From Scenedesmus sp. ARA3 (taxonomy: Eukaryota > Chlorophyta > Chlorophyceae > Sphaeropleales > Scenedesmaceae): a stretch of 64,000 nt of DNA. The stretch lies in NCBI GenBank assembly GCA_004335835.1, contig RWJK01001662.1, positions 4,177-68,176 of the forward strand, written 5' to 3'. A program made the position numbers and the translations under genes. Below, piece after piece: positions 1,181 to 62,763 of the stretch (positions are counted from its first letter, which is position 1; every line of letters starts with the position of its first letter). The notes under the pieces are model-generated. The model saw only the letters and a program-made list of their open reading frames with translations, did not search any database and had not been told where the DNA came from.

Positions 1181-2288
1181 CAGTGTGTCGGTGTCGCTGG
1201 CAGCTGGCAGCAAGCCTGTGCGTGTGCTGCTGAGCTACAATGTGACCCAGCCCGGCCTGGTGGCTGTCACTGGCATCCAGGTGGGTGGGTGTTGTTACAT
1301 AACACAACATGACATGACGCATATAACATGACAAAACGTAGCGAGCAGCATGCTGGCAGCTGTCGTGTGCTGTATGTCGTGTACCATCCTTTGGTGCTCA
1401 GCCAGCAGGCCATGAAAATTTGGGCTCACATTGCCAGATGCACGCGCCCCTGGTGCCACCAAAGTTGACGCCACTTTTCAGCCCACCTGCCTTTTCCTTG
1501 CTCTTGTTGGCAGCAAACCTCTATTCTGGATCATGCTGGTGTCTATGCTGCTGCTGCTGCTGCTGCTGCCACAGGCGAGCTGTTGGGGTGTGTCGTGGTA
1601 CCAGCCATTCGTGCAGCTGCCGCGCCTGGCAGCAGCAGCAGCGGGCCATGAGGCGCTGTCGCCGCAGGGTGCCTTCACAGTGGATGTGCAGCCGCCACTG
1701 CCGCTGATCAAGGTGGGCTGAAGTGGTGTTAGAGGCACCTACTTTACTACGACTTGTAGTATGGCACTACGACTTATAGTACTACGACTTACAGTACTAC
1801 GACTTGTAGTACTACGACTTATAGAATAAATTATGGCATAGCAGCACTTGGTAAGGTAGGGTGTTGACAAGGCGCGTTCACGGTGGACGTGCAGCCGCCG
1901 CTGTTGCTGATCACAGTGGGTTGCATTCGGTTGCCCAGCGTGCTGTGAGCAGCAGCAGCAGCAGCAGCAGCAGCATGCTCGGCTGCATGCACATGCTAAG
2001 CATGTACGCGAAAAGAGAATGTCAAGCAGAGCATAAGCAGCTAGACCCTGGTGCGCTCCACGCAATCTTTGCAGCACACACGCACATGTGCACGCACCAG
2101 CATTTAAGCTGGTAGCACCTGGTCTGTTGCAAGTCACAACACTGCTGACAATCTTGTGTTCTTGTCCCGTCCTGCTGGTGGCTGCTGTTGCTGCTGCTGG
2201 TCCTCCATCCTGCAGGCTGTGCTGCACGGGCCTGAGGTGCAGCTCACAAAGCTGTCGACCGTATTGCGTTCTCTGTCCCGTTGTGCTA

Positions 2289-2333
<45 letters not shown>

Positions 2334-3501
2334 TTTTACTGCAGGCTGTGCTCCATGGGCCGGAGGTGCAGCTCACAGCACCAGCAGATGAGGAGCTAGC
2401 AGGCCTCACCTTCAGCAGCAGCAGCAGCAGCAGCAGCCAGACACCCGGCAACAGCAGCAGCAGCAGCGCGTCCCCATGGACATCTGCAGGATCTACAGGT
2501 GCCGCTGCTGCGGCTGCTGCCGCTGCTGCTGCTGCTGCTGCTGGTGTGTCGGAGCTTGATAAGAAGGTGCCACCTGTGGTGGTGTTTGAGGGGCAGACGC
2601 TGAGCTGGACCCTAAACCTGAGCAACATATCTGGCCAGGCTGTCACGGGCTGCAAGGTAAATCTTGATGTTGCCATGGAATATGCATGAAACAAGCATGT
2701 TTTGACCAAGTTCAATATACACTGAGCTGGACGCTGAACCTGAGCAACATAAGCGCACCGGCTGTCACGGGCTGCAAGGTGAGGGCCGCTTTGGCACGCA
2801 ACAAGGGTGTCTGACCATGTCACAGCCGCTCTGTGACATGCATACATTCCTGCAATCCGCTTCAACGTGTTGAGACCTTTGTTCACTTTTTTCAACTCCA
2901 CTCCTGCAGATCACTGTACTGAATGCCAAGGGACTAGTGATCAAGCCACTAAGCCCAGCCCCAGCAGCAGCAGCAACAGCCAACCAGCAGCAGCAGCAGC
3001 AGCAGCAGCTTCCCTCCAGTTTCAGCGGAGCCCACATGGAGGTCGGGGAGCAGGTTTTAGCAGCAGGCCTGCCGCTAAACCCTGGCGGCAGCCTGTCACT
3101 GCCTGTGGCTGTTACAGTGGGCAAGCCGCCCGGGGACGCCTTTGATGCCGTCATGCTGCAGGTGGGGTTTTAGCCATGCTTTGAAACCCAGCCACTGAGA
3201 TGTACACCATGACGACACAACAGCAGCTTCATATCTCAGCTGTGAAGAAACTCGTATAGGTTGGGCAAAGTGCTACATCATGGCATAACAGCAGATGCTG
3301 CAGTATTGTTAACCAGCTTAGAACCATGGCCCTGTCACACCTACACCTGCTGCGCGAGCCAACGAACAGCTACTGCCATGTACCTGTCTGCCTGCCGGCC
3401 TCATGCACTGCAGCAACTGTGCTGTTTAGCACTCATCATATGAGTGTGCATTTGCTCTGGGATGCTTGCAGGTGCGCATCACCTACCATGGAACACCCGC
3501 A

Positions 3502-3536
<35 letters not shown>

Positions 3537-4151: not shown

Positions 4152-4190
<39 letters not shown>

Positions 4191-6872
4191 TGGCAGCTCG
4201 CCAACCAAGCATGACAGCAGGGCAAGGGGTGGTGCTGCTGCTGTTGCTGCTACTGCCGCTGCTGCTGCTGCCGGGTGGCGTGCTGTGGGCAGTGAGCCTC
4301 TGCTGGAGCTGGCAGTGAGGAATGCCAGCGAGCGCTACTTCAGGTGCGGCGCCGTCCTCTTTTTGCTATGCCAATCACTGTACTTGGTGTTTTGTAGTGT
4401 TTTCAGCTGCAGTGTGTGCACCTCAGCCCCCTCCTGCATCCCTTTCACAGCTGTGGCAGTCAGCATGATGCTGGCTTACATGTAATGTTGCCGCCACTGG
4501 TCTAGTCATGTGCCGTTGTTTTAGTCACTTGCCGTGTGGTGAGCCGCTGCTGGAGCTGGCTGTGAGGAATGCGGCGCTGCGGTTTTGCTGCGGCGTGCGA
4601 CTGTGTATTTGGTGCGTTGATTGTGTTGTTGGCTGCAGTGTGTGCACCGGCTGTGAGCTGGCTGTGAGGAATGCCAGCGAGCGCTACTTCAGGTGCGGCA
4701 CCGCTGTTACTGTTACTTCGTCATATCAAGTACTGTACTCGTTGCTTTGTGCTTGGCCAGCGAGTGCTACTTCCGGTTGGTGCGGGAAACAGTTTGCCAG
4801 GCGTTGTACTTGCGGGTTCTGTCATGTTGTCGACGTCAGTATGGACTTTTGGTCCACAGCCTCCTGCTTGTTGGCCTTGTAGAGTCTGGAAACTATATCA
4901 CAGCGCGCATTGTGCAATTGCATTTCTGTGACGTTGCTGACTGGCCGGCATGCTTGATTCCGGTTGTTGCAGGGCATGGCTGGGCTGCCTGCCCGATCGG
5001 GCGAGCTGCAGACCGTGGTGATGGTTGCTTTTCTCATCCTAGTAACATGCGGGGTTGCCACTGTGTTTGTTGTGCAGGGCATGGCTGGGCTGCCTGCCTG
5101 ACTGCCCGGCTGCAGACCGTGGTGACGTTCACTTGTTTCATCCTAGTAACATGCCAGGTTGCCACTGTGTTTGTTGTGCAGGGCGTGGCTGGGCTGCCTG
5201 CCTGACCGCCTGGCTGCTGAGCACGCGCTGTCACTGGTGGCAGTGCTGGAGCCAGGCGACACGCAACGACTGCTGGCAGTGCTGCCAGCAGCAGCAGCAG
5301 CAGCGGCAGCACCTGGCAGCCCCAGCAAGGCCAGATCAGGAGCAGGATCTGTGGCTGCTGCAGCACATGCGCCAGATCTCGGAGCTGGGGTTTTTGGGCT
5401 GGCTGAACCCTCGCGGCTGGCGGCTGCGGAGGGTTTAGTGGAGCGGCTGGTGGTGTGCTGGGAGATGATCACGGGCGCTGCTGCTGCTGGGCAGCTGCCG
5501 CGGGGCAAGGTGCAGCTGGCACCTGTTGATGTGGCTGCAACCCTGACACCAGGTGGGGTGAAGGTGTTGTTATCGTTGTCACTTTGTTGTCACTTTGTTG
5601 TTAGTGGCTGGGCTGCAGGGCAGCTGCCGCGGGGCAAGGTGCAGCTGGCGCCTGTTGATGTGGCTGCAACCCTGACACCAGGTGGGGTGAAGGTGTTGTT
5701 ATCGTTGTCACTTTGTTGTCACTTTGTTGTTAGTGGCTGGGCTGCAGGGCAGCTGCCGCGGGGCAAGGTGCAGCTGGCGCCTGTTGATGTGGCCGCAACC
5801 CCGACCCCAGGTGCGGGAGATGGCTGTCGTTTTCTTGTTACTTTGTTGTTACAGGCTGGGCAGCTGCCGCGGGGCAAGGTGCAGCTAGCGCCTGTGGATG
5901 TGGCCGCAACCCTGACGCCAGGTGCGGCTGGGGGTTGCTATTCTGTTGTTACTTTATTTTTTGTTTTTGTTGTTGTCTTTGTTGTCACTGTTGCAGCTGG
6001 GGACTGTGAATCTGGCTGCAACCCTGATGCCAGGTGCGAGAGGGGGGGGGGTTTACTTTCTTGTCACCTTATTTTTATCTCTGTTGGCAATTTGCTGTTA
6101 CTGGTTTGGTTGCCGGGCAGCTGCCGCGGGGCAAGGTGCAGCTGGCGCCGGTGGATGTGGCTGAACACTGGCGCTAGGTGCTAGGAGGTGGGCATTACCA
6201 TGTTGTTACTGTGTTGTTATCTTTTTTTTCGCTATGATGTCGCTTTCACGGCACTTGCTAACCTGCGTGGTCTGCTTGCACAAACGGTGTCAAGGTTCTG
6301 CTGCTTAGCTGAGCCACCCCCAGCATGCATTCCCAAGTGGCTCTGGCTGGCTGGCCACGCCCTGCTGTTGCTGCTGCTGTCTTTGCTGCGGCACAAACAC
6401 CCTGCTCTTGTCATCTTGCTGTCCTGCAGGGGCTGTGGCAGCGCTGCGCCCCTCCTCGCTGCTGCTGCGCTTCTGTGCGCCTCCCGCTGCTGCTGCTGCC
6501 GGCAGCGCCTGCCCCCCTGAGCTCATCGACCTGGCCAGCCTGGCACTGGCAGCAGCCTCAGGCCAGCTGTCAGGACCTTCAGGCCAGCTGTCAGGACCCT
6601 TAGGACCCTCAGGCCAGGCCTTGAGCTGCTCAGGACCGTCAGGTCAAACCTCAGGCCAGGCTGTAGGACCCTCAGGACCCGCCTCAGGCCAGCCGTCAGG
6701 ACCCTCAGGCCAAGCGTCAGGCTGCTCAGGCCAGCTGTCAGGACCTTCAGGACCCTCAGGACCCTCAGGCCTGCTGCTGTCAGGCCTTGCCAGCCTGATC
6801 GGGGCAGGGCTGCTGCTGCCGGGGCTGTCAGGGCCGCTGTGGGGCCTGCACATGTCGGTGAGTGGGTGGTGC

Positions 6873-6903
<31 letters not shown>

Positions 6904-8588: not shown

Positions 8589-11500
8589 ATGATCGACGTT
8601 CGAATATCATGGCTAGTTTTTCTAGCACTGGCGGCGGGGAGTGCACTGCTGGGACACGCTGACGCTCATCAGGCAGCACACCAGGCAGCAACCCCTTTCC
8701 AGCAGCAGCAACATCATCATCAGCAGCAGCACAGCCGCAAGCTGTTACAGCCAGCAGGAGCTCCACAGCAGTTTGGGTATGTCAGTGGCAGTGAGTTGGA
8801 CCCTGCCGTCGCTGCGCTGCTGGCATCAGCAACGCACCAGCAACCCAAGCCACCCCCAGCAGCAGCAGCAGCTAGTGACAGCGTAGCAGCAGCAGCAGCG
8901 GCAGCTCCTTTACAAGTCAGGCGTTGCGGCACAAAAGAGGGCAGCAGTGCTGACAGGGCTGTAGCGGAGCAGCGGTTCCAGATAAGGCTGCAGCAGCTGG
9001 GGTACAGCAGCCAGGTGCTTGCCGCTGCTGCTGCTGCTGCTGGCAGTGTCACCAGCAGGGACAGCACTGGTGGCAGCATCAGCGTGCAGCCAGTCACTCA
9101 AATTCCGGTGAGTATGCGGCTGTCATGCGCCTGTTTACATCCTGCTTGTTGTTCAGGTTGTCGGGCATGATTTTGTGTGTATACACCTGATCCTGTGATG
9201 CAGCCATCTTTCCTCAGCCAGGCATTGCCAAGTGGCGGTGGATGTGTTGCTGTTGTGCAACTGCTTGCCGTCTGCAATTGCCAGCTTGATGTGTTGTGCA
9301 TACATCAGAACCTGTGATGGAGCATTACATCAGCCAATGAGTTTGCGGATGACATGGACCTACTTGCTGTTTGTGCCGTTAGGCATGACGTGTTGTGCAT
9401 ACCATAAATCCGGTGGAGGAGCCAAGCATTACACAATTGCCTGTGAGTGTGCAGCTGTCATGGACCTGCTTATACTTAGTGCTGTTGGGCATCATGGTTT
9501 GTGTCTAAGGTTTGTCCTGTGATATAGCCAAGCATTATCCAAGTGCCTTGCGCCTGCCCCTACACACGATTCTGTGCATAATGCAAGTACATCTCCGCTC
9601 CTGCTCAACTCCCTTCCCACACCCTCTCACTCACCAAAAGGCACACCAGCCACACCTCCACTGGCACTTGAGGTCGCTGTTGCGGTGGCGCCCTCTGCCC
9701 CCCTTCCTCCCTCCACTCTGGAATAGGGGTAACCATGTTTTCCATCAAGCCATTGCATCATCGCCATTGGCCCCACACCTTCTCATTGTATGTCTCTCCA
9801 GGTGTTCTTCCACATCGTGCAGTACAACGGCAGCAGCGGCAGCAGCAACAGCAGCAGCACGCTCGAGGGCTTCATCCCCCGGCGGCGCATCAACCAGCAG
9901 ATCATGCTGCTAAACCGCGCTTACCGCGGCAGCTTCAGGTTTTTAATCCAGCAAGTAACATGGTACACAACCGAGGACAAAGCCCTGTTTCAGTCAGGCC
10001 AGGACTCTCCCGGTGAAATGCGTATAAAGGATGCTGTCAGGCAGCAGCAGCAGCAGCTCAACGACAGCAGCAGCAGCAGCAGGATTGCGAACAGTAGTGC
10101 GGCCAGCAGCCTACATGTGTACACCTGGGCGCCGCTGAATCAGGTGCTGGGATGGGCCACATTTCCAGAGGCGTTTTACAAGAACCCGAGTAAAGATGGG
10201 GTGGTGGTGATGCATGAGTCGGTCACTGGCGGCAGTTACAAAGATTACAACTTGGGACACACTCTGACACACGAGGTTGGACACTGGTGAGTGCAATGGC
10301 AGGAGGTGGGCCCTGTTGGGGGCTTGACAGTAGCGATTCAGTTCATGCCCGCTGCTGGGGCATGAATGCAGCTGCTGTACAGCTGCAACGGTTGTTTTGG
10401 GATGATAGCGTTGTTCTGATGATCGTTGGCGCGGCAGTCTGCAGCAAGCTGGTTGATGCTGCGTGGGTGCTAACATGAAGGCCCACTTTGCAGAGTGCTG
10501 CTTCAATTTTGCAACAGCAAAAATGAGCAAAAGCATCTTGCATACGTATGTACTTCACGCATGATCACCGACTTATCATAAGCCAAAAAAGGGCGATGCT
10601 GACTGGTACACTTGCTGCCATTTTCCGTCTTTGCTTCCTGTATGCTTTCAGGCTAGGCGCCTACCACACTTTCCAGGTAGGCAGCGCGCAGCACAGCGCA
10701 GCTAGCGATGCAGTCACCAGCAGCAGCGCGGACTGGCCTTGACAATGCAAATACCTGCTATCAAGTCACAGCAGCTAGCAGTTGATATGGTGGAATGAAT
10801 GGAGCAGTCCGGTTGCTGCAGTGCTGTGCAAGCACAAGTTAATTGCTGCTGTTGCTGCCAGCACAACTTCTGCGGCTGCTGCACAGGCGCAGTTGCACTG
10901 CCTGCAGCTACCCTTCACCTTCCCGCAGCAAGCATGCAACCACAATACAGTCCTCTGCAAGTTGCCAGCAGCAGTGCTTGATATTACCACACAAGTGTCG
11001 TAGCACAAACTAAACGCAAACAATTTCTCCGTGTGCAGGGTGGCTGCGCCATGTCTGCAAGTTGCCAGCATCAGTGTGTAAACGTATCGCACAAGTGACG
11101 TAGCGCAATCTGAACACAACTTTCATTCCGTGTGCAGGGTGGCTGCGCCATGTCTGCAACCGATGGCGGGGACTTTGTGGAGGACACGCCAGCCGTGCGC
11201 AGCGCCAACACGCGCTGCAAGAAGACAGACTCGTGCCCCAGCCTGCCGGGAGAAGACCTGATCGAGAACTTCATGGTGGGACATGTTACATTTTGTGTCA
11301 TTTAACAGTTAGGCTACACATGGTTGAATGTTGCTTTGCACCAGGGGAGCAGTTGCAATGTATATCGGTTGCATAGGCCAATGCCCAGCATGCGCAGGAC
11401 GAGCCATGCCTGCATCTCCCAGCATGTGCTACCACAAGCTGTCAGAGCTGGTGCTGGCATGTGCCGCTGCTGATGATGATGCCTTGTCGGTGCAGTGAGC

Positions 11501-12010: not shown

Positions 12011-12029
12011 AGCGTATTATGCAAGCAGA

Positions 12030-16098: not shown

Positions 16099-17320
16099 AG
16101 GCAATGTGCTGTGGGGTGACAGGGAGGGCCTGCTAGGCCGCGTGCCCCTCAGCAACGCAGCACACAGAGAGTCAGATTATGTGGCAGACTGTGGCATCAC
16201 TGCGCTGGCAGTGCACTTGGATGGCAGCTGCTGCTGGGTGGGGCTGGAGTCTGGGGAGCTGCTGGTCTGCAGGTGCGTCATGTAACAGCCTACCAGTGTG
16301 TTATATAACATGTCACCAACATGGTATCTTGATCTTGTGTCGGCTGGCATGGCTTCCTATTATTTGAATCCTGTGCTACGTTCATTTGTGCTGCTGCAGG
16401 CTCAATGACGCGGCAACTGCAGCAGCAGCTCGCCTAGTTGCAGTACGATTATGTATGTTCACCGTGTGTCAAACAGTGCTGTATTGATGCAGTCCTTGTG
16501 CTGCTTTTCTATGTGCTGCTGCAGGCTCAATGACGCGGCAACTGCAGCCACAGCTCGCCTGATTGCAGATCAGCAGCTGCTGCAGCCGCCTCCAGCAGCA
16601 GCAGGCCCCGGCTGCGCCCCCAGCAGTGCAGCAGCAGGCCGCGTCAGCAGCATCCTGCTGTGCCAGGGGCGGGCCTTTGTGGCGGCTGGAGACAGCGCAG
16701 CAACAGCAACGCTGCAGATGTGGCACGGCGGCAGCAGCGGCAGCAGCAGTGAAAGTGTGCCGCAGCTGCTGGATGTTGTGAGCATTGCGGAGTGCGAGTG
16801 GCTGGGCAGGTGAGATTCGCAGGCAGATTTTGCAGGCAAAGAGGGCTGGTGGGATCTCGGCAAATCATGCAGTGTTGGGTAGCGTCTGCTGTCTGCATGC
16901 ACAGGTGTTACCGGCGGCTGCAATGCTGTGAGCAGTGGTATGCTTGCATGTGTGTTGGCTTAGCGTCGCTGCTCAGCTTGACCCCAGCCATAAGCCACTT
17001 TATATGCACCCTGCGCTGTGGACGCTGCCACGACGTTTTTGCAAGCAACAAACCGGCAACATGTTCTCTTCAAGCACAGCTGCATAATACACCTCAACAC
17101 ATTCAAGTGTACAAGTCTCTCACATCACCTACAATGGATCCAAAGGTTGCAGGTCTCCGGTGACAGGGATGACGCTGCTGTACTCGGACAGCAACCGCTG
17201 TGTTACTGTGCTTCAAAATTAACATATAACATCATTTGGACATTGCAGGTCACCGGTGACAGCCATGACGCTGCTGTACCCTGACAGCATCCAGCCTGCA
17301 CGCTCCCTCAACCTCGGCAA

Positions 17321-17353
<33 letters not shown>

Positions 17354-19287
17354 CCCCAACCCTTTCTCAACCCAAGCAGTACATGCAGCGCTGCTACCAG
17401 AGCTGCAGCACTCCCAGGCAGTGCTGCCTTACCTTGTCACCGGCCACAGCAACGGCATGGTAGTGATCTGGGTGACCAACAGCAGCAGCAGCGGCAGCAG
17501 CAGCAACGGACATGCAAATGCGGCTGCTGCTGCTGCCACACCTAGCAGCAGCAGCAGCAGTGAGGACTGGCTGACGCCGCTGCTGTGTGTGATGCCCAGC
17601 AGCAAGTGCGGCCCCAGTGTGCAGGGCTGGCTGAGGGGCACAGGCTTAGCAGTGAGGGGGCTGGGTGTTGTGGAGGGCACAGGGGTGCTGTGCTGCGGCC
17701 ACGCAAGCGGCAAGGTGAGCAGTGCTGTCACCTGTATAATATACATACTCTTGAGCGCTGCACGCATGCGTAGCAGCAGCACTAGTTTGATGTGTTCAAT
17801 CGATGCTGCATGGCGCTTCCTGTGATCGCACCGCTGCTGCCGGTGTGCTTGCTTTGCTGTTTGTTTTGTCGTTGTCACTGACGCATGTCATGATCCCCCC
17901 CTGCAGATTGCGCTGCACCGGCTCACTCCAAGTGCCTTTCAGAGGGCAGGTGCTGCGCTGGGCTTGCAGCAGCAGCTGCACCGCAGCAGCAGCAGCAGCA
18001 GCAGCAGGCGGCGCTGCGTGCCGGAGCCGGAGCAGTGGTGGCCAGACTCGGCGGTGCTGCAGGATGGTGAGCTAACATGATGGTCAGCCTGTAAGGGTTT
18101 AGTGTTTAGGGTTTTCCACTGAGGGCAGCAATATGCAGTGCCGGAGCAGTGGTGGCCGGACTCGGCGGTGCTGCAGGATGGTGAGCTAACATGCCTGCAT
18201 CAATGCAGCTGCCCAGCATATGTCTCTCTACATGATTCTGAGGGAAAAGCACGCATCTGCCACACACCTGCACTGCACATGCAACGCACGTGACGGCCTT
18301 AGCGCACACGTCGGCATGCTCCGAATGGCATCGTACACGGACGTAAGTCATCACAATATGATCAACTCATTTGCTATGAACTTGCTGCAGCGCATGTTGG
18401 GTGTGGCGCACCTGCCGGCATGCTCAGAAAGGCATGTCATGCCAGCCAGAACCATGACCTATTGTTAGTAATCGACTTCTGATTCTTCATATGCTCTGCC
18501 TGCAGCGCACCTGACAGGCATGGAGCACCTGCTGGCTTGCTCGGAAAGGCATTGTAGGCAAACACAAGGTATCAAATAAAACCTTTGCCATAACCATATC
18601 CTTTGTGCTTGCTGCAGCGCACCTCACGGGCATGGAGCACCTGCTGGCTGCGCCCTGCCTGGTGCGCGACGGCAGCCCCTCGCTGCTGCTCTTCTCCGCG
18701 GGCAGCAGCGGCAGCGTCAAGCGCTGGCGGCTGCGGCTGCCGCAGCTGATGCAGAAGCTGGGCGTGGACGGTGAGGCGTTCTTCTTTGCAATGGAGTTGT
18801 TTATTTGACAGTTGCGAAACGAGTATGCTGTGCGGCTGCTGATCAGATTGCCGCAGCTGCTACAGAAGCTGGGCGTGGACGGTGAGGCGTGCTGACTGTT
18901 AGAGGATTTCAGTTGTAACAAGCTGCTGCTGACTGACTAGATCTAGGTCCTGTGGCACCTGATGGCGAAGCTGCGCGTGGAAAGTCAGGCATGCTGATGC
19001 CTTGGCTATTGCCTTGGCTGCTTAGTAAACTGCTGAATGGACTGCTGCTGCCTCCACCTACAGCTTGCTGACGCCCTGCTTCCTACATGTTGCTGCCTGC
19101 ATTCCACACCCGGCTCTCACCACCAATGCATCACAACAACGTCAGCTGAGTACTACCCCTTCATCACTCGAGACGCATCAGCAGCTAGCGGCTCCCTCAG
19201 CGCCACACAGCAGCAGCAGCTGCTGCTGCAGCCGGCAGCCAGCAGCGGGCCAGCAGGATCAGGCAGCTTCTTGGGCTGGCCAGGCCC

Positions 19288-19319: not shown

Positions 19320-20324
19320 TGGAGGGAGCAGGCAGCCAGCTGCAATCTGGCACGCCTGTGCAAAGCCCTCCAACAGCAGCAGCAGCAGCAGCGGGAGCTG
19401 CGGGTTTGGGAGGGTTGTTGCCTGTGCAGCAGCAGCAGATGTACCCAGGTATGGGCAGCATGACACAGCAGATGATGGTGCCAGGTATGCACCTGCAGCC
19501 GTCAGTGCAGATGCCTGCAGGCTGGTTGCACCCAGAGCAGCAGCAGCAGCAGCAGAATGAGGGCAGCAGGATGCAACAGCAGCAGCAGCAGCAGCTACCA
19601 GATAGCCCGCTGCAGCAGCGCAGCTCATGCGGTGGAGAGCAGCAGGACCAGCAGCAGCAGCAGCAGCCGCCTCACCTGTCTGGTGGGCTTTCCGTTGATG
19701 ATCAGATCTGCATGTACGTGCAGCAGCAGCAGCAGCAGCAGCAGTCGTCAGAGCATTTGTCATCCGACCTGGACGCCCCACCACCGCCGCAGCAGCGGCT
19801 AGACCAGCAGCAGCGGCAGCTGCATGAGCAGGAGAAGCAGCAGCAGCAGCAGCAGCAGCACTGGCCGCCGCACCTAATGCATGCCCGCCGCTCATTCCTG
19901 CGGCGCAACACCACGCTGTGGGCGCGAGAGATCGTGGACAGCCGCTGCAATGTGGACTTGGCGATGCTGGAGGTTGACCCAGGTGGGTCTGTTGTTTGAC
20001 TGCCTTTGACTTTTTCGACTTGGTTTGACCGGGTATCATCACGTCCGACATCTTGGTGCGCAAGACATCCTGGACAGCCGCTGCAATGTGGACATGGCGA
20101 TGCTGGAGGTTGCCCCAGGTGGGTTTGACTGCCTTTGACTGTCTTGACTTGGTTTGACCGCTCTTACCAGGTTTGACAAGTAATGGCGTGCGGGATACCA
20201 AACAGCTACTGCTGCAACGTTGACAACGTTGTGGTGCTTTTGCGATCGCAGCGTGGAGCCACAAAGAGCGCTGCTTAGGGAAGGTCTCATTTGGCTGCGT
20301 GTAGCGGCGCCTGCTTCTCAATGC

Positions 20325-20359: not shown

Positions 20360-21504
20360 TCAGGCACAGAATGGAGCGACACGGAGCGTATGCCGGCTGA
20401 GGTGTCTTTTGACTGCCTGCTGACTTAGTGATTCTGACAAAGTCTTTGTCTTTCTATTGGTGCATGGCTGCGCCTTTTGCCTTTTTTTGCAGACACCAGC
20501 CACAAGCGTGTCCTGGGCGAGGGCTCCTTCGGCTATGTGGAGCGGCGGCTGCTGGGCAGCACCGCAGTGGCGGTCAAGTTCCTCATGGACACCAACAAGC
20601 GCGACGCCAGCAAGTCTTCGTGGGACAGGTGCGGTGCTTGTTGTCGGCTGTGCTGTGTTTCTTGGTTTGTGGTTGTTGCTGTTGTGGCGGCTGCTGGGAC
20701 GCACTGCGGTGGCGGACAAATTTCTTGTACGCCAGCAAGTCGTCGTGGGATAGGTGTGGTGCTTGTTGGATGTGTTTTTTCTATTGATATCCTCCGCGGA
20801 TGGTGGCTGCTGGTGTCGACTGTCGTGGCGGTTAAACTGTTGCATATGCTTGCGGTTGAACATGCGATTTGGGCAGCACAGTGGCAGCACAGTGGTGGCA
20901 GTTGAAGCTTTCCATTGCTTCTGACAAGGATGACGCCAGCAAGACGTCCTGGGTCAGATGAGCACCGCTGTTGTTTCTGGCTGTACTCTGCACGCTGTTG
21001 TTGTGGGTGCTCATTAGCCATCACGGTGATGGCGGGCAGTTCCCAACGGACGCAGCAAGCATGGTGCCAGCAAGACGACCTGGGACAGGTGCACATCCGT
21101 TGTGTAGCTCTTGTGCGCATCAGGTGCATTGTCATGCACGCTGATTCAAGTTTATGACGCCGCCTGATCTCTTGCAACCCCTTGCAGGAGCCAGCTGAGC
21201 GAGCTGCGGCGCGAGGTGGAGTCCCTGCAGGAGCAGCAAGTATCTCGCCGCCCCACTGGCCCTGATGCTGTCTGTTGCAGCACACACTTTGCACATGCCT
21301 TGTAGGAGCCAGCTGAGCGAGCTGCGGCGTGAGGCGGAGATGCTGCAGGAGCCACCCAATAACAACAAAGTTTAAATTTTGGACCCATTGCATTTTCTGC
21401 TTATGCAGGAGCCAGCTGAGCGAGCTGCGGCGTGAGGTGGAGATGCTGCAGGAGCCACCCAATAACAAAGTATAAATTTAATCTAAATAATAATAATAAT
21501 AATG

Positions 21505-42400: not shown

Positions 42401-44160
42401 ACCGTTGGCTGCAGCACCGCCATGATTCAGCAGGTCGACGCCTGCAGGGCAGCAGAGGCGTGACGTGATGGTAGCAGCATGCATGGCCCGTCAGCAAACA
42501 ACATCAAGTACCTTTGGGCTGCTGAGCCCCCGCCATTCAGCATGTCCATGCCTGCAGGGCAGCGCACGTACATGACGTTTCAGCATCAGTTTCAGCATCA
42601 CGCAGGACGCTTCAGCAGGTCTTTGCCTGCAGAGCAGCAGGCGCCGTACAAGAGGAGTGTGCATGCCAGTCAACAGCCAGCTGGCACCAGCAGCAGCGCC
42701 ACTGTGTTGAATCATTGGTGTGGTTGGCGCTCAACAAGCACCGCAGCAAGGGCAGCTGACATCTTTGCACTGCCACACAGCACATGCAGTACCTGCTGCG
42801 TTTGTCACTGCCGAGGCATGACTTACAGGTGGGCTTATGCCTGCAGGACTGGCACTTCAGGCACCGGCTGATAAACATGCCTACCTGGGATCATCACTTT
42901 GCAGCCCGTAATGGCCAGCCGTATGCTGCGCGACTGCACCATGTGCACCGCCCACGCCCACTCCTGCCAGGAGAATTGCTGCTGCCCCGCCGCAGCACGC
43001 ACAGCGCACCAGCTGTCGTATGCAGCACGCACAGACTGGCGGTACGCTGCGATTGCGTCCATGGCTGGGCTGTACTGCACCTCTGGCAGTTGGTGCTCTT
43101 GCAGCAGCAGCGGGCTGCAGCAGGATTCTGGCAGCGTCTGCATGGGCACAGCATCAGCGGCCATACAATATCATCAGCCTGGCATGAGGCTGCAGCAGCA
43201 AGCATGGCTGGTAGCTGGGTTGCAGCATACCCGTCACCCACAATACATGCGAGGATCAGGTGTGTGATGGATCAGCAGGTCAAAACAACTCAATTGCCAC
43301 CTGCTGTTGACGTCCTCACACTGCACTGCAGCAGCGTCTTGCACCATATTTGCATGCTGTGCACCCAACCGTTGAGTGTTGTTGTGGCTTACGGCAATGT
43401 ATGGCGCGAAGGCGCTGGCGCTGCCCTTTTCCCGCTCCTGCAGCAGCTGTGCAGCCAGGTTGGCATTCCAAGGGGCCCCTGGGTAGGCCTCGGCCGCCCT
43501 GTCATCACGCAACGTGCTGTGGCAGCAGCGGCAGCAGCAGCAGCAGTAGAACGTCCACTGCTATCAGCAAGCAGCAACGCAGTGGCTAGTGCCTGAAAAC
43601 TGATGCTGTTTGAAAGAGGCAGGAGTGTGCTGGCCATCCTGCAACTTTGCCAAGCCCGCACACTCCTGCAAAGCATGTAGGCAGTACTAGGCAGCCTGTG
43701 CATGGCAGCAGCTTTCTGAAAAGCTGCACATTTATCATCAAGCAACCTAGCAACAGTGCATGTTTGCTTAATACCGTTACGCTTCATCTACAACTACTAG
43801 GTATGCTTCAGCTCACCTGCTAACTGGCACTGAAAGGATTGGCGTGCTAGGAGGCAAGTCTTGCACTGCCACCAGCCCCCGCACAGTCACATCGCCCATC
43901 GGGCAGTCTCCTGCAGTTATGCTGCCCACGCTGCCGCCATTCTGCGTCAGCCAATTGCTGAGTGCGGCGAAGGGTGCGTTGACTGCTGCGCCTGCCTCTG
44001 CTGCTGCAGCACGCAGTGGTCTGCATTGCGGCTGCCGCCTACGTTGCCTGCTAGTGCATTGGTTTAGTACTGTTGCTGTTATACGGTTGAGAGCCTTGTT
44101 TGTGTGGGTTGTTGCTCTGCTTGCATGTGCAGCATGTGCAGGGTGAGGTGGCAGCAGCAT
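39474..44160 (-). CDS. Plastid Rubisco-LSMT-like SET-domain lysine methyltransferase
   Basis: Protein-lysine methyltransferase of the split-SET group that includes Rubisco large-subunit methyltransferase and SETD3. Exons in gene order: 44160-43817, 43516-43393, 43137-42885, 42074-41944, 41467-41269, 40626-40359, 39867-39474. All phases agree, giving 570 residues. The N-terminus (ATG at 44160) is Ala/Thr/Arg-rich, as in a chloroplast transit peptide. APFAALSNWLTQNGG starts the SET region. LLNHGG (Asn246-His247) and SYGTRGNDDYFVYHGF (Tyr300-x-Gly-Phe303) are the cofactor and catalytic-Tyr blocks, followed by LPNNPDEDV. The C-terminal helical substrate-binding part ends with LMAAVVHYRRAKKQVL. 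The substrate (Rubisco, aldolase or other) cannot be told from sequence alone. The start lies 359 bases from a divergent gene. Confidence 0.87.
40080..41030 (-). repeat. Echoes on both sides of SET-gene exon 40626-40359
   Basis: On the minus strand the exon start (AGGCTGCTGCCACACG to GAGGCCTCAGC) is also found at about 41025-40965, 40862-40800 and 40748-40685, ahead of the true start. The exon end (GTGTGAGGCGGCGGTGCTGT to CAG|GTAC) is copied at 40160-40082 beyond the true end. Spacings are about 110-160 bp upstream and about 275 bp downstream. Confidence 0.9.
42060..42640 (-). repeat. Five-copy acceptor array before SET-gene exon 42074
   Basis: The motif CTGCCCTGCAG|GCATCGAC followed by a (C/T)TGAACCACGG-like start recurs on the minus strand with acceptors near 42214, 42342, 42442, 42552 and, more weakly, 42628, before the true one at 42074. 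Spacings are roughly 75-140 bp. The copies at 42214, 42342 and 42442 also match further into the exon (LNHGGSAANG). Confidence 0.9.
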
Positions 44161-50311: not shown

Positions 50312-52953
50312 TGGTATTTGTCTTGCTTAAGCCGCAGTCTGCAGATTCAATCGCTCAAATCACTGCAAGCTTGACAACATCAGGTGCACTTTTGCTGTCT
50401 CAGCTTCTGACAAAACAACAAATACGCGGTGTCACCTGCGCTGCAGCTGCAAGCCTTCTTCCTTGTGGCTGATGACATCATGTGTGATACGCTGTCTCAG
50501 CTGTGTTTGAACAACACAATCGTGCTGTGCCTGCCCTTTCGTGCAGCTGCAAGCCTTCTTCCTGGTGGCTGATGACATCATGGACGGCTCCATCACGCGG
50601 CGGGGGCAGCCCTGCTGGTACAAGCAGCCCAGGGTGAGGCGCGGGCGGCAGCAGCAGCAGCAGCAGCAGCAGTGTATGTGACAGACTGCAGCTGAGGCAG
50701 AGCTGCAGCCAAACATGTGGCACCGCTGCTTGATCACTATCAACAGTGCTGCTGCCATGACGTGATGTGGACAGCTGCTTGCTAGGCGCTCTGACATGGC
50801 TCAGCTGCCGCACTGCTGGCTTGGGGTCCTGCATATGCTTGCACATGCTTCGCCGCCATGTCTTGCATGCTCGCCGACACCTTTGCGCTAAATCACCTGC
50901 TGGGTTGGTGTGCAATGTGCACCGCCTAGGATGAACATCCCTTTCCACACACTGCCGCTGCTGCTGCTGCTGCTGCTGCTGCAGGTGGGCATGGTGGCGT
51001 GCAACGACTACATCCTGCTGGAGTGCTGCATCTACCGCATCCTCAAGTTCCACTTTGGCGGCAGCGCAGCATACGGCCAGCTGCTGGAGCTGTTCCTGGA
51101 GGTGAGGGGGTGTTATAACTGTTATTTGTTACATGTTAAACAGTAGAAACATTTCTTTTGGGCCTTGGTGCCGTTTGCAGCGTGTGTGCTGCAGCGCATG
51201 GGCTGCTGCTTGTCTGTCGTCACAACACCACCTCTGACAGTCCGCGCTGCACACACTGCTGACGACCACCTACCAGACCAGCCACAGGCAGCTGCTGGAC
51301 CTCACCACCGCACCATGCACACGCACCCAAACACAACCTCAACGTCTATGTCCTGCACATGCTGCTTCCCGCAGACCACCTACCAGACCAGCCCCGGCCA
51401 ACTGCTTGACCACAGCATCATTGCATTCGAACCAACATTGCTGCTGCTGCTGCTCACCGCAGACCACGTACCAGACCAGCCACGGGCAGCTGCTGGACCT
51501 CACCACCGCACCCCCGGGGCACATCGACCTGTCCCGCTACTCCATGGACGCCTACCTGCGCATCGTGACCTACAAGACGGCCTTCTACACCTTCTACCTG
51601 CCCGTGGCTGCTGGGCTGGTGCTGGCTGGCGAGGCACGGCCGGCTGCCTTTGAGCTGGCCAAGTCCATCTGCGTGGAGATGGGCCAGTACTTCCAGGTGC
51701 GGTGGGGTTGTTTGGTGTTGTGGGTAGTTGCTGTTGGCGCAGATGTGTTGGCGCAGTTGTGAGCTGGCCAGGTCCATCTGCGTGACGATGGGCCAGTACT
51801 TTTAGGTGGGGTGGCATGTCGAAATGGGTGGATTGTATTGAATTGCTATCGTCATGAGATGTGTTGTAGCTGCCTCTGAGCTGGCCAAGTCCATCTGCGT
51901 GGAGATGGGCCAGTACTTCCAGGTATGGTGTTGGCTTGGATTCTGTATGTCCTGCTGTTATTGGGCTGCCGCGCAGTGTTGTTGATGTTGTTGGGCTGCC
52001 AGTGGCAGGGACGTTGGCGCGCCGAGTCTATCTGCGTAGAGATGGACTGGTACCGCGTGGTGTTGACGGTCAAGATGTGTCTGCTCTTTGATTTGGTGGT
52101 GCTCCCCGGCCGAGTCCATTTGCGTGGAAATGGGCCAGTAATTCCAGATGGGGGCCGTGTGGTGTTCACAGGTTGTCTGCTGCGCTGTTTGTTATCGCCT
52201 GGCCCAGCATTATATGGGATATTGCTGTGCTGTCATTGCAGTGCATTCTGCGGCTGCTGTATGGCTCAACTCGTGCCTGCCTTCGCCTGCAACGATGTTG
52301 ACGCTGGCTCTGCTGGGTTGCTGCCGTCTCTTTCCGTTGCTTTCAACACCCCATTCCAACCGACAGATACAGGACGACTACCTGGACTGCTACGGCGACC
52401 CTGCTGTTATCGGCAAGATTGGCACCGACGTGGAGGACGCCAAGTGCTGCTGGCTGGTGTGCACCGCACTCAAGGAGGCCAGCGAGGAGCAGAAGGACGT
52501 CATCAAGGTGCGGGGTTACGCCGCCTGTAATCCTGTTGGGTGATCATGCTTCGGCTGATCAATGGTGTTGTGGCGGCGCATTCGGCAGCAGGTCGCAGCA
52601 GCTCGTGCATATGCTGCTGAACAGCAAGGATTGGGGCAGCTGGCATGCCGCACGCCGCCGTAAGCAGCACCACATCTTGCTTGGCCGTCAACTCACGCGC
52701 TCTGTTCAAATCCTGCAAACATTCCTGCAAAAACATTCCTGCAAACAACTCGCAGGCCAACTACGGCCAGAAGGATCCCGCTGCTGTGGCCAAGGTGAAG
52801 GAGGTGTACGCGCAGCTGGACCTGGCATCCAAGTTTGAGGCTTATGAGGCACAGAGCCACGCACAGCTGAGCGCCACAATTGAGGAGCAGAGTCTGCTGC
52901 CCAAGCAGGTCTTCACCAGCCTGCTGGCCAAGATCTACAAGCGCCAGAAGTAG
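48811..52953 (+). CDS. FPS: Farnesyl diphosphate synthase
   Basis: Condenses isopentenyl diphosphate with DMAPP and then geranyl diphosphate to make FPP for sterols, dolichol and quinones. Exons: 48913-48975 (or from 48811), 49152-49247, 49451-49534, 49824-49880, 50547-50633, 50985-51101, 51463-51696, 52367-52507 and 52756-52953. Every exon is a whole number of codons, giving 358 residues from the ATG at 48913. Motifs: [11 protein letters not shown]; the first Asp-rich motif DDIMD (Asp109-Asp113) preceded by Phe104-Phe105, the two aromatic residues that set FPP length in eukaryotic enzymes; the second motif DDYLD (249-253); and the KIYKRQK C-terminus. An in-frame ATG at 48811 adds 34 residues rich in Arg/Ser/Leu, a possible organelle presequence. 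Green algae are reported to lack the mevalonate pathway, so the substrate should come from the plastid MEP pathway. Confidence 0.95.
50432..50475 (+). repeat. Upstream echo of FPP synthase exon 50547 start
   Basis: GCTGCAAGCCTTCTTCCT.G to TGATGACATCATG, the exon that carries DDIMD, is copied about 104 bp upstream with its own CTGCAG acceptor. Confidence 0.92.
51235..51480 (+). repeat. Upstream echoes of FPP synthase exon 51463 start
   Basis: ACCACCTACCAGACCAGCC followed by a CAGCTGCTGGAC-like segment occurs at 51268 and 51375 (the latter after a CCGCAG acceptor), before the true start at 51463. Spacings are 107 and 88 bp. Confidence 0.9.
51757..52150 (+). repeat. Four downstream echoes of FPP synthase exon ending at 51696
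   Basis: Copies of GAGCTGGCCAAGTCCATCTG to CAGTACTTCCAG|GTG start near 51760, 51876, 52023 and 52109. The second keeps a perfect exon end with a GTATGG donor. The others carry substitutions such as TTTTAGGTGG and AATTCCAGAT. Confidence 0.9.
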
Positions 52954-53195
52954 GGATGTTATTTAACATGTTATAACATGGCACTGGTGAGTGAGGTGCT
53001 GGCGGCGGCGGGTGGCGAGGCAGGGTGTGGGTCGTCTTCACCAGCCTGCTGGCCAAGATCTACAAGCGCCAGAAGTGAGGTTGTTACATAACACGTTATG
53101 ACGTGTTGTTCAGGTTAGTGTGGTTGCTGATGGTAGCTGGTGGCGAGGCAGGGTATGGGAGGTCTCTGCTAGCCTGCTGGTTAGGTACACAAGCG
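52954..53195 (+). repeat. Echoes of the FPP synthase C-terminus past the stop
   Basis: GTCTTCACCAGCCTGCTGGC to AAGCGCCAGAAGTGA is repeated at 53034-53078, with a weaker third copy near 53160-53204. The TGTTA.ATAAC-like inverted sequence that follows the stop is copied with it. Confidence 0.9.
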
Positions 53196-53204
53196 TCAGA
53201 AGTG

Positions 53205-54904
53205 ACTGCAGGAAACTCCACAGTGGATTGGTACATTCTAGTGATGGCCAGTGGAAAGGCAACATGTGGATGTGACGGGAGGGTTGGCGCCATTATGTTG
53301 CATCAAGAGTGAGGCCGGGCGCGGACGCGCTTTGCCTGGACCGTGCAGAGCAATTTGCTGTCTGAGGTGGTGTGAGCGGGTTGCCAAGGGAGAATTTACA
53401 GTTGAAAATGTACAAGCAGTGGGCTAAAGCTGGCGCTGGGTTGCCATGTGGCATGGGCAGTGTCCACAGCCTGGCGGCGGCTGAGTGGCGGTGCGGGGTG
53501 CGCCTAGCCTTTGAGAGGGACAGAAGGCAGGTGCTGGTGCAGAGCTCTGCATATGGCTGTGTTCAGTGCATGCTGCTGGCAGCTTGGCGCCACACGTCAT
53601 GTGGTTCGATGTGGGGCGGCTGCTGCTGCTGGTACTACTGTGTGCTCCTTGTGGAGCATTGCCAGTGGTGGTATTCAACACATGTGATACTTTTGCTGCG
53701 GCAAAGTGTATGTCACTGTTGGACTTGCAGTTGCTGCAGCAATGCAACGCCTGCATGCTGATGATGGCTTTGATGGTGCAATGCCTGCTTGTGCTGGTTG
53801 TGGTGTTCTTGTCACGCTTGGTAGCAGTTGGTTTAGTGCAAATTGTGGATTGTGCATCGTGCAGGTGCGGGGCAGTCACTGCTGCATTATGGTGCATGCA
53901 TTGGCGTCAGTGTGCAGAGGAATAAGTGAGCATGAGCAACAGCTGTATCCTGTATTCACCGGTGCCATCGGCACAGCCCTGCCTTTCAGCAGGCTGCAAT
54001 AGCTGCCATAGGCAGTGCAGCCTGTGCTTGATTGTTTGGATACCGCAGACAGTGCTGTGGGGACAGGAGGGTCTCTGTGGCTATGGAGCACCACCGGCAA
54101 GCTGACCGGCTGGTACGTACAGTTTAACTGCAGTACTGCTGTCTTGCCATATAGTTTCACTTTGTGCACTTGCTTACGCACCAAGTGGTTCAAGTCTCCC
54201 GTGGGACGTAGGAACTGATTGATTACAGTATTGACCTGTCCTGCAGCATCTGGCACATTACTGTTGGCGCGTGTGGTAGTGGTCAGAGTTGGTGTTGGCA
54301 CACTGACAGATCGGTAACCACACTCAGGGCCTGCAGCATGTAGTGCGCCATCACTGCACGCCGTGTGCCTTGTGGCTACATCATACTTTGCAACTCTTTT
54401 TATCATACTTTGGGAGTCCAAATTCAAATCATGGCATGTGGCTGGCATCCAGGCCCTGGAGGGGGTGTGATGATGCCAGAGCTCGAGCATAAAGTTTTTG
54501 CTGCAATGCTGTGCAGTACGCAGCTGGGTGATCGCGATCAGGGGCCCTCGGGTAGCAGCGCAACATGTGCACACAGGATCTTGGAGATGAGACGGAAAAT
54601 GGAAGATGATCCGTGTCAGGAGTGACATAACACCAAGGTTCCTCGTGACACGTGGCAAGCCACCCCGTTTGACCGGCAAGAGTGACTGACCTGTCATGAC
54701 AGTCTATCTTGTGGCCGTTATCGTTCAGAATCTGCTCGCTTTACTACGATTCCGCTTCGCCCGGCAGTGCCCCGGCCTGCCCTTGCTCCCAACAGTGTCC
54801 CACCGCCTTCCGGTGGCCTGCGGCAAGCTATTTAACCAGCGGATAGGCTAAACGCTCCGCCCGAAACATTATTACTACAACATCATATACATTGAACCGC
54901 TGCC
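53205..54904. other. Intergenic region with one long open frame
   Basis: No gene is identified with confidence. A non-repetitive minus-strand frame is listed separately. The upstream region of the first lipase gene is here. Confidence 0.4.
53876..54697 (-). CDS. Unassigned 273-residue open frame
   Basis: An uninterrupted frame starting with ATG (54697) that is not built of trinucleotide repeats, unlike most long shadow frames in this window. I recognise no domain. Composition is Thr/Ser/His-rich without a clear hydrophobic core. Splice-site filtering cannot be applied to a single exon. It could be a young or lineage-specific gene, a transposon remnant or chance. Confidence 0.2.
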   Translation of the reverse strand: MTGQSLLPVKRGGLPRVTRNLGVMSLLTRIIFHFPSHLQDPVCTCCAATRGPLIAITQLRTAQHCSKNFMLELWHHHTPSRAWMPATCHDLNLDSQSMIKRVAKYDVATRHTACSDGALHAAGPECGYRSVSVPTPTLTTTTRANSNVPDAAGQVNTVINQFLRPTGDLNHLVRKQVHKVKLYGKTAVLQLNCTYQPVSLPVVLHSHRDPPVPTALSAVSKQSSTGCTAYGSYCSLLKGRAVPMAPVNTGYSCCSCSLIPLHTDANACTIMQQ

Positions 54905-59864: not shown

Positions 59865-61181
59865 ATGGCAATCGCAGGCGCTGCAGCGCTGCTCGCAACC
59901 TTCAAACAGCAGTGCTTGCTGCTGCTGCTGGCTGTGCTGTGCTTGGCTCTCCTGCAAACAGATGCTGTGGACGTCCGACCTGATCCATTCTGCTCCACTC
60001 CAGAACAACCACCTCCGGCGCTCTACAACACCAGAGGTAAGCGCTACTCCTTCCAGCAAGCAGGCGGGAAGTTGAGCAGAAGCAGCGCCTGCATGAGCTG
60101 TTCAACGTCGTGCAGCACACAGCTGGCTGACTAGCCAGCACACAATGTGAGCTTAACTATTGTAATATGGTGCTTTTTCCTGCAGGCCAGCTTGTGCCGC
60201 AGCCCCTGGCCAGGAGGGCAAAGCTACCCGCGCAGCTGCCAGTCAACGCCACACTGCAGCGCGAGGGGGCCACCTACAGCTGGCTGTACACTCAGTTCTT
60301 CAACCTGCTGGGGTGGGCACCCTGCCCCCTGTCAACAACGCCAAGTGAGCCCAGTACAGTCAGCGCAGCGCTGCAGCTGCCAGCTGCCAGCAGCTGCAGG
60401 CACCTGTGGCGATGCAACACCGTTGCACGCAGAGCTATAGCTCATGTAACAGGCACGGCGTGCGCCTGCAGCCATGCTTCTATGAGCATCGTCATGTTGC
60501 TGAACAGTTGACAACGAGCTTGCTGTGCATTTTGCACCCGCAGAGCCGTACTCTGAACCAGCTGGTTGGAAGCTAGAAGCAGTGCTCAACACTGAGTGTA
60601 TGCCTTGTGCTGTGCCTGTTGCGCTGCAGAGCCGTACCCAGAGCCTGTGGGCTGGAAGCTGGAGGTAGTGCTCAACATAACCTCCATGTACGGCAAGGAA
60701 TTCACACAAGTGCCAACAGCAGCAGTGTTGCGGCCTAACACCACCAATGTATCCAGGCAGCTGCTGGTGCTCATCCGCGGCTCAGCGTTTGACGAGAACC
60801 GCATCAGTGAGTGCAGCCGCAGCTGGACGGCGAGCACACCGTGTGCAGCAAAAGCAAATGCAGCAAACGGGTGAAATTTGGCGGTCGTCAGCCCGCTGTC
60901 ACTTGCGGTGTGTCAACAACTTGTGGTGTGTCACTTGCGGTGTGTCACTTGTGGTGTGTCACATGCGGTGTGTCACTTGCGGTGTGTCACTTGTGGTGTG
61001 TCACTTGCGGTGTGTCACTTGTGGTGTGTCACTTGCGGTTTGTCATCAGCTCGCTGTCGCTTGCGGTGCAGCTGCGCAGCGAGCGGCCTGCACGCAGCTG
61101 CTGACAAGGGCCGGCAAGCCCTCCTCAGCCTTGGAGTATAGTAGCAGCCAGTCGACATGCTGCTGCTGATGATGATGATGC

Positions 61182-61241
<60 letters not shown>

Positions 61242-62763
61242 AGACTATGACTACTCGCAGATCGCCGCCCCAGCGTATGGTGACGGCCTCATTCACCGCG
61301 GATACTACAAAGCATCTGAGCAGCTTTGGGGCGATGAGACAGCAGGCTTACAAGCGGTGCTGAAGAAGCTCATTGTGGATGCGACCAGTGGCCGCGTCAC
61401 TAGTGTGCTGTTTGCCGGGCACAGCATGGGGGGAGGCTTGGGCACACTGCTGGCTGCCAGGACAGAGATGGGTGTGATGTGATGTGATGGCAGCTGACTG
61501 ATGATGGATGGCTCAGGCCCTGGCCCGGGACGGTATGTGGTGGATGCCATGCTGCAAGCAGCGACAGCAGTAGCAGCAGCAGTGCCGATTGCATCAGCGG
61601 TCGCATAGGTGTCCACAGGGGATGCACCATTGGCGAGGATTGCGGCTGGTTGCTGTTGGCAGTGGCAGCAGCGCCCATCACGCATGCACCCTGGCAGCTG
61701 TTGTGTTTCCGGCATGCAAGAACTGAAGTGACTCATGTTTCTCATGTGACACCCACTTGGCGCCTTCCTCACCTTTGCACTGCTTGCCCGCCTATCTCCC
61801 TGCGCGCCGCAGAAGTACCTGGCAAAGGAGTGCAACAGCACAACCAACCCAGGAGCGTGCAAGTTCCTGCCAGCCTCGCTGCGAGCCAAGCCCCTGGTGT
61901 CTCTGGTGGGCTTTGCCGCGTGCAATGCTGGCAATCCTGCCTTTGCTGCTGACTTTAACAGGAGGGTCAACGCGCGCCTAATGGACTTTGAGTTTGACAG
62001 GGTCAGAAAGGTGAGGCGTGCCAGCATTGAAACACAATTCACGTGTGCATGTACATGTATGCTGGCGTTCGCTGTGTGTAGTCTGTGTTGCCTGCAGCAG
62101 CGACAGGCGCTGGCTGGCAGTCATCGGCTGATACATTTCATGCAGCAGGTGTACCTGATGCGTGTCTTCTCAAGTGCTCTGCGCGGCATACAGCAGTATG
62201 CTGCCAAATCTGGCCATCATCGGAACTACATGCTGGCTTGGAACCACTTGTTTCACTGCTACACTGCACCTTGCTGCCTGCTCCTGCGTATCTGCCTGAC
62301 ATGCTTTCCATCTGCTGTGCAGTTCCTCACTGCCTACAACACTACATCAGACTGGCCAGCACCCGCCACCCCTGTCAACTACACTCGCGTGGGCGGCATT
62401 GTGCTGCTCCCTGCCAATGGTATGCCATTCCAAAGCTCTGTGTGGTCCACCACTGGCAGCACAGTATCAAACCTCGACCCCACTGCACCCCAAGGGGCGC
62501 AAGCGTTCAAAGATTGGGATAATGCAAAGCAGTACAAGATAGCGTACTTTGGGCTGACATACGCCCGCGGGACGCTGTACTCTGCTGGTGCCCACATCTG
62601 CAGCTACAGGTGCATGCTGAGCCAGTTTGTGGCCAATGCAACGGGCGATTGGTGCCTGCTGCATACTGGCAATGCTGCAGAGCTGGCTAAGGCCTCCTAC
62701 TGCGGCAACTTCCCGCCTAATGCCATTGCTGCTGTGTACCCCACCACACCAGCTTACCCCTAA
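59865..62763 (+). CDS. Secreted class 3 lipase, copy 2
   Basis: Paralogue of the lipase at 54905 with the same six-exon layout: 59865-60036, 60186-60344, 60630-60806, 61244-61473, 61813-62010, 62323-62763; 458 residues. Signal peptide with the core LLLLLAVLCLALLQ. AGHSMGGG, GFAACNAGNPAFAADFNRRV, a FEFDRV Asp block and GAHICSY are all kept. The donor of intron 4 has changed from GAG|GTGGGT to GAGATGGGT; the next GT, six bases downstream, keeps the frame and adds Met-Gly, and I used that one. Exon 4 is entered through a (CTG)19-TAG acceptor. The last 150 bases of coding sequence are almost identical to copy 1. If the shifted donor is not used, this copy would be broken. Confidence 0.85.
60538..60600 (+). 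repeat. Upstream echo of lipase 2 exon 60630 start
   Basis: GCAGAGCCGTAC.C.GA.CC to GTGCTCAACA copies the acceptor and first 50 bases of the exon 88 bp upstream, then runs into a TGA. Confidence 0.9.
60897..61063. repeat. 14-bp minisatellite GTGTCACTTG(C/T)GGT
   Basis: About eleven copies of a 14-base unit, alternating C and T at one position, in intron 3 of lipase 2. Lipase 1 lacks it, so it arose after the duplication or was lost from copy 1. Confidence 0.92.
61184..61240 (+). repeat. (CTG)19 immediately before a 3' splice site
   Basis: Nineteen CTG units run directly into the TAG acceptor of lipase 2 exon 4. Lipase 1 has a shorter, interrupted CTG tract at the same place. Confidence 0.97.

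Follow-up and report, generated by a model that had tools for sequence, protein, structure and literature searches.

Why are the ends of exons in a green alga repeated in the sequence just beside them, with the splice site or the stop codon included in the copy? The question is raised by a stretch of 64,000 nucleotides from Scenedesmus sp. ARA3 (contig RWJK01001662.1, forward-strand positions 4,177 to 68,176; hereafter the window, numbered from its first letter), for which a sequence-only reading had described about 30 arrays of such partial copies, here called exon-edge echoes, on both strands. We found that the echoes are real and that they occur beyond the window too. The explanation we favor, with somewhat better than even confidence, is random tandem duplication followed by an exchange with the working exons that refreshes the coding part of the echoes.

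The window belongs to a eukaryotic assembly of 87.3 Mb in 1567 contigs, and the DNA analyzed (314 kb of 87 Mb) comprised the window, bases 1-200000 of contig C953 (10371 of them N) and bases 100001-150000 of contig C1435, whose coordinates are given here as local to the 50-kb stretch sampled; both additional stretches were picked without regard to repeats. The FPP synthase of the window and a protein of Tetradesmus obliquus share 99% identity over the 229 residues compared, and the main exon hits of a branching-enzyme gene on C953 are 98-100% identical to the T. obliquus protein P0138; judged by these protein identities, the source alga is T. obliquus or a near-identical strain. Helicase and SMC1 are database names, branching enzyme is our reading of the Pfam domains of P0138, and TRS120 and lipase are names taken from the sequence-only reading. 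Exon borders behind all counts came from a home-made hidden Markov model (HMM) built from the codon usage of the sequence itself, which placed the four later exons of FPP synthase within six bases; only HMM exons with a coding score were used, because the model leaves genes unended and sometimes calls echoes as exons. Five genes were compared with public proteins.

Echoes at exon edges

A copy of its own first or last bases was present within 1 kb outward of 141 of the 792 model exon edges, a denominator that also counts edges skipped because their flanks were short or masked; when exon edges were matched to the intron of another gene as a control, a copy appeared in 7 of 776. Some sources among the 141 are themselves echoes called as exons, and 51 of the 141 arrays were removed because the source was itself an echo or was not clearly longer than its echo, leaving a final set of 90 edges (arrays) with 153 echoes, which is shared by the codon-position and spliceability analyses. 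In the window, where arrays occur on both strands, the exon model contributes 29 echoes of 19 source edges to this final set, next to 60 non-redundant repeat cores spaced 70-300 bp apart, and the earlier estimate of about 30 arrays was a fair one. The nearest echo lies at a median of 128 bp (quartiles 112, 128, 203); self-comparison gave frequent spacings at 90-150 bp, very few at 40-80 bp and further hits at multiples, and the periods of tandem repeats have the same gap at 40-80 bp.

The orientation of the copies is the one first described: echoes of a right exon edge lie downstream in 47 of 53 pairs, and those of a left edge upstream in 36 of 38 (91 pairs in this count). Such a rule, donor copies downstream and acceptor copies upstream, is expected because any tandem duplication across a border gives it. 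The splice dinucleotide is kept near the edge in 207 of 242 echoes, and the outer splice sites of echoes have a median score of 5.74 versus 6.0 in their sources.

These features can be read directly in the FPP synthase gene, whose earlier exons begin from 48913 and whose later exons carry the best-studied echoes (Table 1). Donor, acceptor and stop codon are all found in copies there. The nearer of the two echoes upstream of exon 51463-51696 retains CCGCAG and the farther reads CTGACG; the first of the four downstream echoes holds an in-frame TAG, and the last has lost its GT. Past the stop codon, copies of the gene's end stand at about +125 and +250, the sole stop-codon case checked. That the copies have decayed to different degrees agrees with the claim of repeated events over time. 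P0009, a relative's FPP synthase that is apparently transcript-derived, differs from other FPP synthases in an N-terminal stretch immediately ahead of the exon that bears echoes in the window.

Protein-to-DNA alignment of FPP synthase, the branching enzyme and a Prp22-type helicase found the source copies alone in the proteins and no echo. Residues 552-575 of the T. obliquus branching enzyme P0138 match two intron places upstream as well, and residues 660-680 two downstream; in the helicase P0127, a relative's transcript, residues 771-800 match two downstream places and residues 576-600 three. Some helicase echoes diverge in protein, the source reading GRKMAEFPLEPPMSK and the echo ARKMAEFSLEPRMSK.

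Birth and survival of the duplications

Of the 60 repeat cores in the window, 11 have an edge that falls at an exon edge (null 4.0; at most 11 in 500 shifts); the figures are 55 of 152 in C953 (null 11.4, maximum 23), 9 of 15 in C1435 (null 1.9, maximum 6) and 75 of 227 in the three stretches pooled (null 17.2 by local shifting, maximum 27). The coincident core edges stand mostly 2-8 bases outside the exon edge, and counts of dinucleotides at core edges, made before exon modelling, gave no clear signal. The pooled excess is what would be expected from a duplication or templated insertion with its start or end at exon borders, RNA-templated copying being one example, yet we consider such a process very improbable, given the behavior of young arrays and the extent of the copied units.

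Arrays with an identity of 80% or more across the whole unit were classed as young (39 of 150), the young and old classes being made of repeat cores, at times several per array and hence not all independent. Exon edges were overlapped by 15 of the 39 young arrays (null 16.9, sd 2.8), which is no excess, and by 68 of the 111 old ones (null 48.0, sd 4.9, maximum 67), an enrichment. The proposal that breakpoints seek exon borders is thus not upheld: there is no sign of duplication seeking them, and since young arrays stand at chance and old arrays are enriched, the association with exons, which appears with age, is best read as the product of unequal survival.

The sequence between nearest copies, here called filler, was homologous at p<0.02 in 32 of 65 pairs and above the null median (p<0.5) in 58 of 65 (68 pairs were eligible; the p values are empirical, and pairs or cores of one array are not independent), so whole units were duplicated, filler included, in most arrays. 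Copying of the exon edge alone had been hinted at by a filler test in 50-base windows, with homology at p<0.05 in 17 of 45 donor pairs and 19 of 45 acceptor pairs; the test over longer filler overturned it. Unit size is narrow and similar across locations: for cores spaced 70-200 bp the median was 122 for the 71 at exon edges, 126 for the 13 within exons and 111 for the 66 that lie clear of confident exons. Three arrays of C953 (L017, 81022-81629; L025, 160151-160573; L027, 189055-189526) consist of tandem units of 99, 100 and 128 bp that are 0.85-0.99 identical and lack a well-supported exon edge; they are possibly recent products of the same duplication process.

Divergence of the copies and its explanation

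Across the 153 echoes, mismatch between source and echo is 5.5-12% in the exon part and 7% at the GT/AG, then rises to 13-24% at +2 to +4, 46% at +6 and 61-69% beyond +31, so that divergence takes a step at the splice site. Within the exon part the differences fall on codon positions 1, 2 and 3 at 145/2644, 153/2653 and 424/2627 between source and echo, at 78/1053, 70/1059 and 214/1046 between adjacent echoes, and at 41/757, 44/758 and 127/751 when FPP synthase, branching enzyme and helicase are taken alone. The third-position share declines as divergence grows (77, 66, 63, 53 and 49%, from counts). The comparison between echoes exceeds the uniform expectation for third positions in 29 of 33 arrays, with 1 below and 3 ties.

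Plain neutral decay after random tandem duplication, with a frozen source exon and both parts in the intron drifting, has several points in its favor: the birth of the duplications is random, splice-site loss is modest at the 207 of 242 echoes given above, and the stop codons (5 in 2550 codons; in a subset of the echoes, 70 of 82 pairs, 3 where 4.2 are expected for a neutral echo) and gaps (12 of 17 frameshifting) speak of no strict coding maintenance. We nevertheless regard it as quite improbable. Twelve parameter sets of neutral decay were simulated and passed through the same echo detector, and 12 of 12 miss both the step and the codon-position ratio: mismatch at +6 reached a maximum of 0.30, the third-position share stayed flat, and differences at third over other positions were 1.55-1.69-fold, versus 2.85-fold in the alga. 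Third positions, at 16% divergence, also lie far below the 46% of the adjacent filler, and the excess in 29 of 33 arrays holds between echoes themselves.

A codon signature of this kind would also arise if the echoes were real cassette exons of alternative transcripts under coding selection, and their outer splice sites of nearly source strength, the would-be cassette lengths that are multiples of three in 23 of 37 cases (one echo per array) and the SMC1 gene point the same way. Two public T. obliquus SMC1 models each hold one echo, though not the same one: in P0241 a stretch of the hinge is repeated, in P0242 a stretch of the coiled coil; these inclusions may reflect real transcripts or errors of gene prediction. 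The SMC1 echoes at 11335-11403 and 11458-11526 of the C1435 sample have AG at their inner end, and the young array L029 of the same gene (9275-9876 of the sample) has six 57-base model exons at a 108-bp period, one 57-base piece of which is taken into the P0242 model. Some echoes may be used as exons, but for the set as a whole we judge this account unlikely, as is translation as the general cause of the codon signature. Echoes are not, as a set, bounded by two splice sites: an inner site scoring above 3 was found in 0.32 of them, compared with 0.37 at the same place in the source exon and 0.25 at a random intron place. The excess of lengths divisible by three can stem from in-frame CAG, GAG and AAG codons in the echo, most gaps break the frame, and the three proteins aligned above are free of echoes. 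Moreover, the third-position share is alike in spliceable and unspliceable echoes at matched identity (0.70/0.71, 0.69/0.60 and 0.53/0.51), which indicates the working exon as the source of the signature. An artefact of assembly seems scarcely credible, and so does an introner, a mobile intron element dispersed among genes. It is known that repeats close to exons can mislead assembly, and introners are present in some algae, but the copies are diverged to different degrees, exon edges rarely match the introns of other genes (the 7 of 776 above), and P0241, which contains an echo peptide, is encoded on an 11 Mb contig and hence in another assembly, so that this echo is no fault of the present one. 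The earlier view that the echoes are not an assembly fault is supported by the unequal decay and this SMC1 model.

The favored explanation starts from a generic process that would make head-to-tail duplications of about 90-150 bp independently of exon borders. Copies inside exons that change the protein would mostly be purged by selection; those spanning a border would be harmless, because the body of the exon stays attached to one intact splice site, and introns would thereby gain about one unit per event and collect exon-edge echoes. The intron-derived half of the unit would then diverge fast, whereas gene conversion or unequal recombination, probably involving different alleles as well, would hold the exon-derived half and the splice consensus near the working exon, itself fixed by selection. 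It is from the misfit of the simulations and the presence of the signature in unspliceable echoes that we infer this periodic refreshing by working exons, which may belong to other alleles. The farther of two echoes resembles the source more closely than the nearer one in 32 of 62 comparisons, less closely in 23 and equally in 7. In concerted evolution, gene conversion or unequal exchange keeps the copies of an array more alike than the linked sequence implies; here, too, the exon part is less diverged than the linked filler of the same age, both directly and against the simulations, with faster mutation of the filler as a possible contributor. The difference is that homogenisation in the alga is apparently limited to the exon-derived half of the unit.

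Several results weigh against a refreshing exchange. Neutral settings with few indels match the overall divergence and the gap counts, and the overall third-position share is slightly higher in splice-capable echoes (0.629 vs 0.568). Direct conversion tracts were not found in a run-length test of low power (p<0.05 in 3 of 97 echoes), and a four-gamete test, also of low power with only 29 informative site pairs, gave 7 incompatible (10% in simulation). A stricter bar is that third-position differences equal those at first plus second positions, as could be the case if echoes were snapshots of the exon at different times; arrays above, below and tied with it number 49, 27 and 14 for source versus echo and 18, 12 and 3 between echoes, and with the latter counts the excess over this bar is insecure array by array. 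Exchange between alleles is, besides, an added assumption, because conversion within the same allele alone cannot exceed the stricter bar. Where the filler is strongly homologous (34 of 153 pairs) it carries 13.6% substitutions versus 5.9% in the exon part, about twofold only, and in the more diverged of those 34 pairs its divergence falls below that of the exon part. If the filler mutated several times faster than exon-like DNA, that would account for the splice-site step, but not for the codon pattern.

A more far-reaching possibility, which we hold to be doubtful, is that the introns form a genome-wide reservoir of back-up exon edges, kept coding-like, from which cassette exons or new exon edges could be drawn. 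The effect of selection on the working exon would then spread through exchange among copies and alleles, and the conflicting SMC1 models may perhaps be an example.

Arrays of the window, related systems and intron growth

Two genes of the window were checked against proteins, FPP synthase and the one earlier named TRS120, whose presence as a gene is confirmed by the Scenedesmus protein P0319, named only hypothetical; the remaining arrays rest on the exon model (Table 1). In the TRS120 array at 5483..6229 the first units are 0.99 identical across the whole unit, and the farthest echo upstream of exon 21628, 440 bp away, is identical to it over 50 bases.

Table 1. Exon-edge echoes and their source exons in the window.
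Feature	Position in window	Strand	Basis
Echo of end of exon ending 1712, TRS120-named gene	1868..1913	+	Protein alignment, exon model
Echo of start of exon 2345-2656, TRS120-named gene	2216..2248	+	Protein alignment, exon model
Echo of end of exon 2345-2656, TRS120-named gene	2719..2778	+	Protein alignment, exon model
Echo of end of exon ending 4343, TRS120-named gene	4655..4692	+	Protein alignment, exon model
Array of exon-bearing units (111-129 bp), TRS120-named gene	5483..6229	+	Tandem-repeat and whole-unit comparison
Echo of start of exon 11138-11275	11039..11060	+	Exon model only
Echo of start of exon 16525-16809	16400..16443	+	Exon model only
Echo of end of exon 17950-18066	18140..18180	+	Exon model only
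Upstream (18506-18537) and downstream (18849-18874) echoes of exon 18618-18763	18506..18874	+	Exon model only
Echo of end of exon 19736-19982	20058..20118	+	Exon model only
Three upstream echoes of exon starting 21628	21188..21455	+	Exon model only
Three echoes of start of exon 40436-40626	40687..41017	-	Exon model only
Four echoes of start of exon 41944-42074	42148..42551	-	Exon model only
Upstream echo (100 bp) of start of FPP synthase exon 50547	50447..50482	+	Repeat core, protein alignment, exon model
FPP synthase coding exons with best-studied echoes (50985-51101, 51463-51696, 52367-52507, 52756-52950)	50985..52950	+	tblastn of T. obliquus P0001, sequence
Two upstream echoes of start of exon 51463-51696	51265-51314, 51375-51417	+	Sequence, exon model
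Four downstream echoes of end of exon 51463-51696 (from 51760, 51869, 52021, 52108)	51760..52147	+	Sequence, exon model
Two echoes of last 45 coding bases and stop codon of FPP synthase, past the stop	53034..53205	+	Sequence

The lipase-like stretches have repeat cores at 57295 and 60540, yet no array of theirs is in the final set. Two open frames there (about 56662-57111 and 61750-62760) share the near-identical stretch QKYLAKECNST... and are apparently a tandem lipase-like pair; a 14-bp minisatellite of 10.4 copies lies near the second (60897-61045). Repeats of period up to 12 led to the masking of 8.8% of the window, and triplet repeats of the CAG/CTG type are very dense throughout it, many within open frames as poly-Q, poly-S and poly-A.

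Internal tandem gene duplication is already known, as is the part it plays in intron gain, and in the AGGT model of Rogers one copy of a duplicated exon segment provides GT and the other AG, the unit being spliced out as a new intron (PMC4974935, PMC3443670). Both papers cite Gao and Lynch (2009). The alga shares with these systems, as described there, short head-to-tail duplications within genes that copy splice signals and alter introns, here as adjacent head-to-tail copies of whole units (PMC4974935, PMC3443670). In contrast to these systems, its copies stand at borders already present and lengthen introns; they affect 141 of 792 edges, have a narrow unit size, and their exon part outlives the rest. 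As to the AGGT model, the inner ends of the echoes are at background splice score, and the echoes adjoin such borders or follow a stop codon. In tandem exon duplication with mutually exclusive splicing, repeated exon sequence likewise adjoins its source (PMC9013439), whereas the copies in the alga take in just the edge of an exon and usually lack a second splice site. Introners place one sequence family in many genes, unlike the echoes, whose source edges rarely match the introns of other genes. As to a molecular source, a study in mouse cells describes small tandem duplications that arise when staggered breaks with overhangs of 43-50 bases are filled in by CST/Pol alpha-primase and repaired by end joining (PMC8355091); such a fill-in could plausibly produce the short tandem duplications of the alga, with its units of 90-150 bp.

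By titles and the starts of abstracts, no paper among the matches listed deals with echoes of exon edges, whether in T. obliquus or in another alga, and the density, narrow unit size and unequal survival of the echoes appear unusual. The interpretation given by the sequence-only reading is, as a whole, partly supported: of the new splice sites, mini-exons and longer introns it had proposed, the lengthening of introns stands, and mini-exons are left unproved by inner splice sites at background.

In one published table, the mean intron of T. obliquus is 462 bp long, compared with 230-302 bp in the four other algae listed (PMC5966456); these longer introns would be consistent with growth at many borders by one or more echo units of 90-150 bp each. 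There is also a risk that gene predictors take echoes for exons, as our own HMM did and as the two SMC1 models, which differ by one echo each, illustrate. The arrays separate the birthplace of a duplication from the place of its survival and offer a direct and testable route for intron growth, and the genome of this alga would be a natural place to measure exchange in coding versus non-coding copies.

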